Of a DNA stretch of 39,374 nt, positions 15,837-22,933 are shown piece by piece. Under the pieces are notes generated by a model. It was not told the origin of the DNA, did no database searches, and saw nothing but the letters and a program-made list of their open reading frames with translations. Position 1 is the stretch's first letter, and the number at the start of each line of letters is the position of its first letter. The stretch is from a virus, in the IMG/VR virus record IMGVR_UViG_3300019999_000076, positions 1-39,374 of that record, one strand, 5' to 3'. Both the position numbers and the translations under genes were made by a program.

Positions 15837-17988
15837 GCCATCAAACCTGAAGGTTTCGGAGGCTCTTATTTCTTTTTATCTCCCTCCCTGGGAAAATAAT
15901 CTAGAACCATCTCAAGGAAATGTTAGGCATTGGCTAGATAACTTATCGGCCAAACTCCAGCCTATGGAACAATCACGCTGGAATCAAGCAAATATCGATA
16001 CTCTGTTTTATGCTGGTAATCAGACATATATTAACCAAAATCTTAACTTTTCTCCTGGTATTTCTCCTCAGCAATACTATTTCAATCTGGTTCAGCAGCC
16101 TGTGAATATGATCACGGGAAGACAAAGACAGCATAGAAAATCTATTGTTTATATGCCAGCCGATGGAGCTGATCCACTCACTACAGATCAATATACACGA
16201 CTTATAAAGAATATCTGCCGTAAAGAGAGTATTAACGAACAATTCTCTAAATCATGCGAACTGTCTGCTATCGCTGGAATGAATTTAATGCAGCCATATC
16301 TTGATTTCACTGGAGATGATCCCGCTCAAGGCCAGCTAAAGCTGAAAATCTGGGAATACAACTCCTTTATGGTTGATCCCTATTTTAGAAATCCTGATAT
16401 GTCTGACGCGCAAACGATATGGTGTCAAGAATATATCAGTAAATTGGAGTCGCGAGTTAGATTCGGGGAAGATAAAGTTAGGAATGTATCTCCTCTTAGT
16501 GGTACACCTCAAAATTATGGAAGATTTTACTTCCTGCCTGAAAACCAAAACATGAATAGAAATGATTTATATGTCTTATCTTATGTCTGGTATAAGGCGG
16601 TTAAAAAGAAGAAACGTCTTTACAGTAGAAAAAGAAACCAATTCTTTGATTTTGCAGGTGGCGATGGCCAATTAGAACAAATTCTTTACCATATTGAAGA
16701 CATGGAAGAAGTTTCAGTAGATAGTACATGCTGGAAAGTCGCTGTCGTGTTAAATGATCAACTCATGTACCAAGATGTAAATCCTCTTTGGGATGGACCA
16801 GAATGTCCTATGATTCCAAATTTTTGGAATTATGATCCTCACATCAATCAATATGATTTACGTTCTAGATCTCTTATATTCGCTATGCGCTCCCCCCAAT
16901 TCCTTTTTAACTACAAGGTGATAACTAACAATGATATCGCCGCTGCTACAATTAATGCAGGCTGGAAACGTAAAGTTGGAGCTGTAGCGAATGAGGATAA
17001 CCTAAAGAAATCAGGGCAGGGCTATGATGTTATCATCAATCCCGAATATGAATTAACTGATTGCGAAAAGATAATTCCTAGCGCTGTTCCTGAGTCGGAT
17101 TTAGCTTTAGCGCAGCAAATGGCTGATTTGATCCATCAAGTTTGTGGCATTAATATGGAGAATTGGTCAGGGCAAAACGATAAACAAATATCTAGCCTTA
17201 CCATGTTATTGAAGCAAGATGCAAATCTCATGGTATTCCAGAAGTATTTCGATCAATGGGATAATGCTCTAAAGCTTTTAGGTGAGAGAATGCTTCAAAT
17301 CGGTCTAAACAACTGGAATGCTGAGAAAGTCGCCTTGTTAATCGGCGAAGAACCAAGCCCCCATTTTTACTCTAAGGTTTTTGCTAAATATCAAACGCAT
17401 GTAGAAGAAGCTGATTTAACTCCTACGCAGCAGAATCTACAAGCGCAGCAAATGATGGACATTAACTCAGCCTTTCAAAGAGAAGTGTTTCCTCCTTCAA
17501 TGATTATCCCTAAGTTAAATATCACAGGAAAAGGGGAAATCATTCCATTCTTACAACAACAAGAGCAGCAAGCACAGCAATTGCAACAAGAGCAAACGGC
17601 AGTACAGCATGCATTTGAAGATGCGAAGCTTAAAGAACTCTATACAAAAGCTGCTGGAAATCTAGCCACCGCTAGGGAACGTTCAGGTCGTGCAGAGGCA
17701 AACATAGGCTTGTTCGAGGAAAGATTAAGTGAAATTACAAGAAATAGAGCACTTGCTACTAAAGATAAAATGGAAGCCTTAGAAAAGTTGGTTGATGTTA
17801 TAGCTAAGTACGGAGAGATTGAAGCAGCTCTTAAAATGAATCAAATTGAATCGTTTGATTATCAACAACAAAACAATGAAGATAGAGAAAAGGTAGATGC
17901 CAAAATGACAGCAGAATCTTCAAGGTTTATGGAACAAATTATGGGCAATCAACAAAACTCTTCGCAAAATCAACAACAAGCTATATAA
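15835..17988 (+). CDS. portal protein, P22 type
   Basis: A 717-residue protein, close to P22 portal length (725). It starts with TTG; the next in-frame ATG is at ~43 and would remove conserved sequence. Matching features are ARFYAGNQ-like LFYAGNQTYINQN, QPVNMITGRQRQHRKSIVYM, MDP-like FMVDPYFRNPDMSDAQTIWC, and a long Gln-rich helical C-terminus (LQQEQTAVQHAFEDAKLKEL) like the barrel or crown helices. It forms the dodecameric DNA channel at the head vertex, binding the terminase and then the tail proteins. The stop lies just before a run of small genes. Confidence 0.9.
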   Translation: MPSNLKVSEALISFYLPPWENNLEPSQGNVRHWLDNLSAKLQPMEQSRWNQANIDTLFYAGNQTYINQNLNFSPGISPQQYYFNLVQQPVNMITGRQRQHRKSIVYMPADGADPLTTDQYTRLIKNICRKESINEQFSKSCELSAIAGMNLMQPYLDFTGDDPAQGQLKLKIWEYNSFMVDPYFRNPDMSDAQTIWCQEYISKLESRVRFGEDKVRNVSPLSGTPQNYGRFYFLPENQNMNRNDLYVLSYVWYKAVKKKKRLYSRKRNQFFDFAGGDGQLEQILYHIEDMEEVSVDSTCWKVAVVLNDQLMYQDVNPLWDGPECPMIPNFWNYDPHINQYDLRSRSLIFAMRSPQFLFNYKVITNNDIAAATINAGWKRKVGAVANEDNLKKSGQGYDVIINPEYELTDCEKIIPSAVPESDLALAQQMADLIHQVCGINMENWSGQNDKQISSLTMLLKQDANLMVFQKYFDQWDNALKLLGERMLQIGLNNWNAEKVALLIGEEPSPHFYSKVFAKYQTHVEEADLTPTQQNLQAQQMMDINSAFQREVFPPSMIIPKLNITGKGEIIPFLQQQEQQAQQLQQEQTAVQHAFEDAKLKELYTKAAGNLATARERSGRAEANIGLFEERLSEITRNRALATKDKMEALEKLVDVIAKYGEIEAALKMNQIESFDYQQQNNEDREKVDAKMTAESSRFMEQIMGNQQNSSQNQQQAI

Positions 17989-18028
17989 TTTAAAAAAAGA
18001 GCTATTATGCTCAAAACACGGGGTAGTT

Positions 18029-18280
18029 ATGGCAGACAGTCAAAAAATGGGTAGAGCATCTTCAGGCGGTCAACGCATTGATGATCATAAATTCTGGGCA
18101 GGCGGGCCAGGTAAAGATATGGTAATGCCGCAAGGCGCGCACACAAAGAACGAAAGTTCAGCAGAAGGCGCTGGATCGGAAATGGACTATGAAGATACAA
18201 CAGAAAAAGTTAAAGCACAGCAAATGGCTGGTGTAGGCAAAATTAAAGGCCGTCCTATGAAGCCTTTATATAGAAACTAA
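18029..18280 (+). CDS. small hydrophilic late protein
   Basis: An 83-residue protein rich in Gly, Lys and Met (MADSQKMGRASSGGQRIDDH, GGPGKDMVMPQGAHTK, ending GRPMKPLYRN) and probably disordered. Proteins like this often follow the portal gene in P22-type gene orders and may be minor head proteins. No family was recognised. Confidence 0.6.
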   Translation: MADSQKMGRASSGGQRIDDHKFWAGGPGKDMVMPQGAHTKNESSAEGAGSEMDYEDTTEKVKAQQMAGVGKIKGRPMKPLYRN

Positions 18281-21415: not shown

Positions 21416-21418
21416 AGT

Positions 21419-21448
21419 TTGACAATAAAATTATATATAATGTTATAT
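21419..21448 (+). promoter_or_regulatory. promoter before the coat gene
   Basis: A perfect TTGACA (21419-21424), 18 bases, TTATAT (21443-21448), starting just after the scaffold gene. It would give the coat gene its own strong transcript with a ~135-base leader. Confidence 0.55.
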
Positions 21449-21454
21449 TGAAAC

Positions 21455-21575
21455 TTCCGCTAGCCTTGCGTTACAGGCACTCGCGTAGAGGAATTCGCAC
21501 CCTCACTAGATATGATAGAAAACGGACGTAGTAGGCTGCGTCGTCCACCGATCTACATGTCATCATAACATTTAA
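21455..21575 (+). promoter_or_regulatory. GC-richer structured leader of the coat gene
   Basis: This leader is less AT-rich than its surroundings and contains several possible stems: GCCT/AGGC around 21464-21479, GACG/CGTC around 21524-21541, and a long-range AGCCT/AGGCT pairing. It has no coding frame. It may be a regulatory or stabilising 5' UTR for the most abundant virion protein. The fold is not established. Confidence 0.35.
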
Positions 21576-21589
21576 ACCAATAGGTTTTT

Positions 21590-22933
21590 ATGTCGATCAC
21601 GACCACAGGTAATCTGGGGCCGATGATTCTGCAATCACTAGCACCTGCTATGCTTTATGTACCCACTCCCACGATGAATTATATCACCGTGTGCGATAAG
21701 GTTTCTATGCCAGCAAATGGTGGAACTACTTGCAGATTCATGCGCCCAAGAGCTTTGACCCCACCAACAGTGCAATTGGGGAATAGCGGTATAGATCCGC
21801 CAGCTCAAGTGCCACAACGCGACATCATTGATGCGCAAATGGCTTTTTTCGGTACTGGATGTATTATTAACGAACAAGTTATTTTGCAAGACCAAGAAGG
21901 CGTACTCGCATGGGTATCCGAAAGATTGGCTGTTGCAATGAGACAGGCTAGAATGTTTGGTCTGTATAAATCTTCTTTGATTGACTTGGAACTCCTAACT
22001 GCATGAAAACGATTGAAGTCTATTTTAAAAGTATCAGTGATTTCAAAAATCGGATCGCTGCCCTTTGGCAAAATCAAAATGATAATGAAATTTATGAATT
22101 TTCATTTGCTGATAAAGAAATAGAAGATGCTTTTAATAATTTGATTCGATGTTTTAATGAGAAGGAAGACAAGGCGGAAGCGAAAGCACCGTGAACGACT
22201 AAGTAAGAAGACCTCGAAAGAGGAAGCGATAGTCTGAGCACCATAGAGATATGGTGAGGTTGATCCGAAGAGGTTGGCCCGCCTAGAAATAGGTCATAAA
22301 AGTAACAGATTGGAAGATCTTATTTTAAGAGACTACATAGTCTCTGCTGCTTCGCAAATTAACGCGGGCGGTGGCTCAAATGGATTTAACCCAACTAATT
22401 TGGGTATTTCTGATTTTAGCCTAGTAGCTACTACACTCGATACTAACAATGCTTATAAATTTATGAGCGGTATCGAAGGTATGGATAGATTTGGGACTGG
22501 CCCTGTAAGAAGCGCATATTTTATGCTCTCTTCTACAGAACTCCAGTCTGATTTCGATTCTTTGGTTGGTTCTGGCTTTTTAAGTCAATGGAACTACCCA
22601 ACGAATGCTTCTGCTCTTCCAGCTGAGTATGGTTCAGTATTCAATACTCGTATATTGACAAGCTCTGAAGCGCCAGTTGCTAGAAATGCGGCTATTAACA
22701 ACGTTGGAGTTACTAACGATGTTTATTATAATACCGTATTAGGTAAGCAAGCACTTACACATATAAATCAAGATGGATTTTCCATGAACTTGATTTATCG
22801 CGATCCTTACTATTCTGGAATGCTAGCGCAAAACGCAACTTTGGCGGTTAAATTCGCCCAAGCTCAAGCGATTACGCAAGATACAGCGATTAGAAACCTA
22901 TTAAGCACACGCTTAAGCAACTTGGGAGTATAA
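21590..22933 (+). CDS. major coat protein, N4-gp56 type, interrupted by a group I intron
   Basis: The coding parts are exon 1 (21590-21949, 120 codons) and exon 2 (22313-22933, 206 codons plus stop). Joined they give 326 residues, running ERLAVAMRQA into EDLILRDYIVSAASQINAGG, which is continuous with the N4-gp56 coat pattern (RQxED..LRD). Exon 1 begins MSITTTGNLGPMILQSLAP. Without splicing it reads into the intron and stops at 22006 as a 138-residue fragment. Exon 2 alone would need a TTG at 22274 inside the intron. The coat forms the icosahedral head with the scaffold encoded upstream. Splicing would control how much capsid is made. Confidence 0.88.
21950..22312 (+). mobile_element. group I self-splicing intron in the coat gene
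   Basis: Length is 363 nt, and its removal joins the exons in frame. P1: exon end ACAGGCT (21943-21949) pairs with GGTCTGT (21959-21965) with the required U-G pair at the splice site. P7: GACTA (22197-22201, within GTGAACGACTA) pairs with TAGTC (22230-22234). P8: CCTC-GAAA-GAGG (22212-22223). P9: CACCATA-GAGA-TATGGTG (22239-22256). A likely P3 is TCTTC (21971-21975) with GAAGA (22207-22211). The last base is G (22312), as in all group I introns, and the end AACAGATTG resembles that of T4 td. The P4-P6 region lies within the small ORF and was not resolved. Confidence 0.9.
22003..22194 (+). CDS. intron-encoded 63-residue ORF, no endonuclease motif
   Basis: ATG 22003 overlaps the stop that ends unspliced coat translation (ATGA), so it could be translated by coupling only from unspliced RNA. 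The product (MKTIEVYFKSISDFKNRIAA, later FSFADKEIEDAFNNLIRCF, acidic/Ala end) has no LAGLIDADG, GIY-YIG or HNH motif. Its stop sits in the P7 strand of the intron. It may be a remnant, an accessory factor or non-functional. Confidence 0.45.
   Translation: MKTIEVYFKSISDFKNRIAALWQNQNDNEIYEFSFADKEIEDAFNNLIRCFNEKEDKAEAKAP

Follow-up and report, generated by a model that had tools for sequence, protein, structure and literature searches.

Coat-gene group I introns of an uncultured phage and its relatives: candidate ssrA-like read-through tails and core-less companion introns

The stretch analysed here (the window) comprises 39,374 nucleotides (nt) of one strand, positions 1 to 39,374 of the IMG/VR virus record IMGVR_UViG_3300019999_000076, and the element in question interrupts its major coat gene. 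The gene appears as two open reading frames (ORFs), 21590-22006 and 22274-22933. The initial annotation had noticed these two broken frames and proposed that a group I intron at 21950-22312 separates them, so that its removal would restore one protein of 326 residues in which RQA is joined to EDL. The relatives of the gene confirmed both the boundaries and the restored protein. Among the first 80 IMG/VR relatives, which were fetched by exon 2 similarity, about 48 had RQA and EDL joined with gap 0 and thus an uninterrupted gene; in one of them (L001) the identities on the two sides of the junction were 99% and 97%. This implies that the insertion is exactly 363 nt long, with a 1-nt synonymous ambiguity remaining in its boundary. 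The predicted spliced junction of the window is GACAGGCT joined to GAAGATCT. Homologues that end naturally near residue 138, which the initial annotation had named as evidence against splicing, were not found, and the uninterrupted relatives encode one continuous protein.

Features of the interrupted coat gene in the window (positions are those of the whole stretch).
Feature	Position	Strand	Evidence or remark
Exon 1, residues 1-120	21590-21949	+	mostly 93-100% identity with uninterrupted relatives
P1 exon strand ACAGGCT, last base is the splice-site U	21943-21949	+	7 base pairs (bp) with 21959-21965, U.G at the junction
Group I intron, 363 nt	21950-22312	+	missing at precisely that point in uninterrupted relatives; covarying core
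Possible P10 strand UUU	21956-21958	+	sequence only; 3 bp with exon-2 GAA 22313-22315
Internal guide sequence GGTCTGT	21959-21965	+	partner of the P1 exon strand (ACAGGCU/GGUCUGU)
P3 5' strand UCUUCUU	21971-21977	+	pairs with 22205-22211; covaries
P4 5' strand CUUG	21985-21988	+	pairs with 22170-22173; covaries
63-residue intron ORF, P5 region	22003-22194	+	ORF list; its ATG overlaps the read-through TGA (ATGA)
In-frame TGA closing the unspliced product ..RMFGLYKSSLIDLELLTA	22004-22006	+	same-site relative L013: ..LELLAA
P4 3' strand CAAG	22170-22173	+	alignment covariation
P6, GCGG 22174-22177 / CCGU 22189-22192	22174-22192	+	covaries
P7 5' strand ACUA	22198-22201	+	pairs with UAGU 22230-22233; covaries
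P3 3' strand AAGAAGA	22205-22211	+	alignment covariation
P8 hairpin CCUC-GAAA-GAGG	22212-22223	+	covaries
P7 3' strand UAGUC	22230-22234	+	alignment covariation
P9 hairpin CACCAUA-GAGA-UAUGGUG	22239-22256	+	predicted fold
Two more 3'-domain hairpins, P9.1/P9.2-like	22258-22293	+	predicted fold; layout conserved in relatives
Terminal G of the intron	22312	+	sequence
Exon 2, residues 121-326 and stop	22313-22933	+	PHROG 1357 major head protein, 2.7e-9

The secondary structure of the insertion was assessed in an alignment of the core of 27 sequences, the window intron and 26 short introns of its relatives. In the helices P3, P4, P6, P7 and P8, 97.2% of the cells were paired and two-sided changes occurred in 20 of the 23 pairs, whereas none of 500 shuffles was as good and slid controls reached 33-52%. 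The pairs alternated, for instance, between CUUG/CAAG, CUCG/CGAG and GGUG/CACU in P4, between GCGG/CCGU, GGGC/GCCU and GCCG/CGGU in P6 and between ACUA/UAGU and AGCA/UGCU in P7. The P3 that had initially been listed as possible is real, as its two strands (UCUUCUU/AAGAAGA) covary. Thus, judged by covariation, the window intron holds the P3-P8 and P4-P6 core including the P7/P3 pseudoknot, and it folds better than its shuffles (z -3.7). Together with the P1 carrying a U.G pair and the terminal G, these comparisons identify 21950-22312, which lies in the coat gene of an uncultured tailed phage, as a group I intron that would be expected to self-splice in a GTP-dependent reaction.

To place this intron among its kin, interruptions were located in 149 related coat genes with a purpose-written spliced-alignment program (66 genes in the sample were uninterrupted), which yielded 200 interruptions. 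The loci were chosen because they resembled the window or matched patterns for the short insertions described below, and therefore the frequencies given here are not representative of the whole family. In the first set, a placement with T before the intron and G at its end was available within 3 nt for all 103 full-size introns, and 93 of them had a P1 of 6-9 bp with a U.G near the 5' end; several of the ten others were long elements with the guide placed further in. Full introns, the shortest of which measured 196 nt, occupied about 40 different positions in the coat gene across the relatives, with up to six interruptions in a single gene (L185, L432). For 46 of the 103 introns the nearest relative lay at a different site. 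In L185, moreover, the introns at amino acid (aa) positions 60 and 144 share an identical 96-nt stretch but differ in their guides, which suggests that an intron has recently moved to a new site. Such pairs imply that the guide has been re-adapted repeatedly, and they support the view that the window intron is one copy of a single family spread over about 40 sites of the coat gene, with its guide fitted to each site. Sister introns of 400-1200 nt often contain LAGLIDADG homing endonuclease ORFs on either strand. Short unrelated intron ORFs (e.g., in L013, L122, L185, L245 and L298) share an (N)QPERSKRED-like motif where their frame runs through a conserved part of the ribozyme.

The initial annotation had missed two features, a tail encoded by the introns and the core-less companion introns of the relatives. 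The tail is the end of the peptide that results when translation of unspliced RNA continues past the exon into the intron; all tails are written here up to the stop codon. In 116 of the 200 interruptions this peptide ended in ..AA, usually ..LAA, and in the other two frames such an ending occurred once each (in the first set, 79 of 141 versus 0 and 1). The ending ..LAA was coded by 25 different nine-base sequences, with all three stop codons, which indicates that the peptide is kept and not the RNA sequence. The tail was written from the L1 loop, from the guide itself (GCCCTCTTAGC, giving ALLA), from the P5 loop or from the P6 loop (..NEAQAEQYALAA). Its presence also varied with the location of the intron: it was found in none of the 17 full introns located at or before aa 49 but in 64 of the 70 later ones that do not directly follow a short core-less insertion (p=2e-13, although the sequences are related to one another and such p-values overstate), and in only 5 of the 56 full introns directly behind such an insertion. 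Several tails were ssrA-like over a longer stretch (..NEYALLAAA, ..EQYALAA, ..ANDQSFALVA), and others of the tag type were ..KSSLIDLELLAA and ..SSLIDLELAA. When ALAA is placed behind a linker, the protein is degraded by E. coli ClpXP (PMC8512704). The intron-encoded tail may thus mark truncated coat protein for destruction.

In a separate, unbiased scan we searched all viral contigs for the conserved P3-P4 sequence; some of the hits fell within the same coat family. Among the 60 hits with a clear upstream exon frame the tails ended in LAA (10), LVA (4), IAA (3), QAA (2) and AVA (2), and none of these appeared in the list of the commonest endings in 120 control frames. One hit region (L310, 1700-2050) is an intron in a P22-type coat gene (PF11651, 3e-31) with the tail ..ANDQSFALVA, and its relatives L395, L420 and L326 carry tails such as ..ANDSSFALVA and ..ANDEKFALVA. 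These look like nearly complete ssrA tags, which we take to resemble those of betaproteobacteria. A nucleotide search of GenBank phages with the intron gave mostly weak matches and a single 56-nt core match, in the metagenome-derived MW202674, which turned out to be a P22-coat intron as well; its read-through ends ..QDAYFLLAA. In that record the two halves of the intron-split P22-type coat gene (16569-18084) are annotated as two proteins. L315 and L316 have an intron of the same family in a gene that looks tape-measure-like by its sequence, with the tails ..NTMGALAA and ..NNMGALAA, and hence the tail pattern is not confined to coat genes. In addition, the same-frame tails of L319, L323, L331, L345, L362, L376 and L393 were of the kind ..VVAFS, ..EVAIS, ..EVVFN and ..VVALS, possibly a second kind of tail.

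The companion introns are insertions of about 30-80 nt after codons 88, 92, 104 and 114 of relatives of the window gene; the window itself has none. We found 53 of these minis at the four sites, and the site-88 set was gathered by a pattern that required only an insertion of suitable length. In all 53, the G of a guide faces the last U of the exon within a P1 of 6-9 bp, and in 51 a P10 of 3-9 bp can form with the 3' exon; 49 minis scored better than shuffled inserts (p<0.01). Where the exon varied synonymously, the P1 pairs were C:G (25) and T:A (7) with no mismatches, and those of P10 were T:A (20), A:T (4), G:C (4) and C:G (2), i.e., 30 of 32 with two exceptions. At site 104, for example, guide and exon changed together between GTGTTA/TAACAC, GTATTA/TAATAC and GTACT/AGTAC. 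A placement ending in G was possible for every mini. All are far below the length of the shortest full intron and too short for a P3-P8 core of their own, and by these features they are group I-like splice substrates and not autonomous group I introns.

Each of the 53 minis is directly followed by a full intron; in L021, for example, a 39-nt exon separates the mini from an intron of 242 nt. Correspondingly, a full intron at aa 90-145 was present in all 30 genes with a site-88 mini versus 15 of the 99 other genes. Seemingly lone minis, in L444 and L090, proved to be an artefact of stretches that end inside an intron. Four further core-less elements at site 104 (L043, L049, L051, L075) hold a LAGLIDADG gene in L1, and the tag stands at the end of 53 of the 57 core-less elements when these are added to the minis. 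The 19 minis that lack an internal stop are all of length 2 mod 3, which at site 88 shifts the reading of the next exon into a frame ending in ..RLAA or similar. It is probably the ribozyme of the neighbouring intron that cuts the minis out.

Taken together, comparison among relatives shows the identity and boundaries of the intron, the frame-specific ..AA tails, the mini guides with their covariation and the adjacency of minis to full introns; from these we infer that the introns splice in vivo, that tagged fragments undergo proteolysis, that the coat gene is gated and which ribozyme acts on the minis. The window intron would be spliced out of its mRNA in the two steps typical of group I introns. 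Ribosomes that reach the RNA before splicing would halt at the read-through stop, 18 codons inside the intron. In the family, long truncated coat fragments would thereby gain a ..LAA tail that directs them to ClpXP-type proteases, and proteolysis would remove the useless fragments before these could disturb the assembly of capsids. A number of relatives have the tail on a separate core-less mini just upstream of the full intron. This mini would be removed in cis or in trans by the ribozyme core of the neighbour, so that stop and tag would keep the coat gene shut until the neighbour's ribozyme is synthesised and has folded. We consider it highly probable that the explanation as a whole, i.e., a group I intron of a family spread over about 40 sites, with ssrA-like tails and minis removed by a neighbour, is correct. 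With moderate confidence we further propose its joint functional form, in which introns carry an ssrA-mimicking quality control and satellite mini-introns (about 30-80 nt), cut out by the next ribozyme, serve as a stop-and-destroy gate.

The minis could instead be recently decayed full introns that lost their core and are rescued in trans by another core in the cell, having no role in tagging or gating. Decay would fit the LAGLIDADG gene in L1 of the core-less site-104 elements, where a mobile intron might carry it. It does not account for the tag at the end of 53 of the 57 core-less elements when the full intron behind usually lacks it (5/56), nor for the occurrence of minis at four separate sites, each time directly upstream of a full intron, and we regard decay as doubtful. 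For the full introns, one might suppose that they are ordinary group I introns whose ..LAA tails are a functionless by-product of conserved core nucleotides (GAACUCGCAGC and similar), as the SSLIDLEL part of one tail is coded by the conserved P3-P4 sequence. A by-product should not favour one frame (116 versus 1 and 1), be coded by 25 synonymous sequences from the L1 loop, the guide, the P5 loop, the P6 loop and even the out-of-frame next exon, be missing from early sites with the same core nucleotides, or shift onto the mini wherever a mini precedes the intron; this makes it improbable. We give far less weight to the idea that minis are translational bypass elements skipped by the ribosome, like those of T4 gene 60 or the byps of yeast mitochondria. 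Byp elements are of similar size (about 30-80 nt in the minis), the length of a mini is often not a multiple of three, and its pairing with the flanks is hairpin-like, but the last triplet of the insert equalled the take-off codon in 0 of 53 cases, which makes bypass unlikely; moreover, minis pair in the P1/P10 register, have U.G at the splice junction and end in G, the scheme that nearby full introns use, and each sits before a full intron. Finally, that nothing is spliced and the two ORFs of the window represent separate coat proteins or a dead gene is hardly credible, since all uninterrupted relatives encode one continuous protein closely similar to both exons and the insert is structured and covarying.

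Several observations weigh against the explanation proposed here, in addition to the overstated p-values. The tag is missing in 6 of the 70 late introns and the window is among these six: its tail ..KSSLIDLELLTA, ending ..LELLTA, is a near miss, where L013 has ..LELLAA at the same site; the family has the C-terminal ..LAA or a close variant of it and the window copy does not. The match to Rfam RF00028 that the initial annotation expected was absent for the window intron at E up to 5 to 10. The same model also gave no match at E up to 0.5 to eight sister loci with additional introns of this family, and for this reason its silence on the window intron is uninformative. We observed no excess of pairing between the tails of minis and the neighbouring introns (six-mers: 150 observed, 174 expected), which leaves removal by the core of the neighbour as the least supported step. 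The read-through of the capsid intron of Tuc2009, a truncated product of 55 residues, bears no tag, and the T4 introns of td, nrdB and nrdD, which stop at once, are not known to have an AA tail. The case is built from sequence comparison. A search of genome contigs for the host gave six matches in metagenome-assembled genomes of unrelated phyla, which were taken as mis-binned phage contigs and pointed to no host and thus to no particular set of proteases.

As to the surroundings, a P22-type portal gene and a terminase gene with about 36% identity to Streptomyces phage terminases lie upstream of the coat gene. Its leader (21416-21589) has a block agatatgatcGAGAActGACGTA..AGGCTCGTCtACCGATC that is conserved in most relatives, with variable hairpins upstream; its fold z is only -1.1, and the block looks like an unassigned leader RNA separate from the intron. 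Searches of Pfam and PHROG gave no match to the 63-residue intron ORF, and an AlphaFold model of the coat protein was not usable (mean predicted local distance difference test score 31).

If this explanation is true, phage and bacterial introns would not be just silent passengers, as their own sequence would dispose of the protein made when splicing comes late. This would explain how several introns are tolerated in the most highly expressed phage gene under coupled transcription and translation. The minis would be natural ribozyme-less introns that rely on the catalytic RNA of a neighbour; such dependence has long been considered a step in how spliceosomal introns arose and, by the literature found here, has so far only been built in the laboratory. 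In the freely accessible literature searched, there was no report of an intron-encoded degradation tag and nothing relevant on group I introns that lack a core in nature.

Introns in capsid genes have precedents. The one in mycobacteriophage LittleE was demonstrated in 2013 by reverse transcription PCR and N-terminal sequencing, with Tuc2009 cited there, and efficient splicing, with reverse transcription PCR shown, was reported for the LittleE capsid intron and the minor-tail intron of mycobacteriophage BAKA (PMC3706429). These precedents weaken the initial claim that an intron in a capsid gene is notable in itself; less usual are the tail that the introns encode and the core-less companions seen in relatives. 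Like the introns of LittleE, BAKA and Tuc2009, the present one is of the group I type, lies in a highly expressed late gene and has U before it and G at its end, and LittleE carries a homing endonuclease as do sister introns here. Unlike them, its family occupies about 40 sites in one gene with up to six interruptions, re-programmed guides and core-less minis. The LittleE and BAKA read-throughs end ..NSVATAAA and ..SDDLAAAAA, respectively, tails not pointed out as a tag in the literature found. An early in-frame stop inside group I introns is also known (PMC3073962), and, as in T4 td, nrdB and nrdD, a stop just inside the intron shields the core from ribosomes. The proposed tagging resembles the tmRNA/ssrA-ClpXP system in that an incomplete protein receives a C-terminal ..(A)LAA or ..LVA, but here the intron encodes the tail, which is translated as part of the mRNA up to a normal stop codon, and tmRNA would be unnecessary. 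As in the engineered trans-excision-splicing ribozymes and 'spliceozymes' (PMC6155759, PMC4094466), a group I core would remove a foreign internal RNA segment; the minis, in contrast, are natural candidates and bear the guide in the excised segment and not in the ribozyme.
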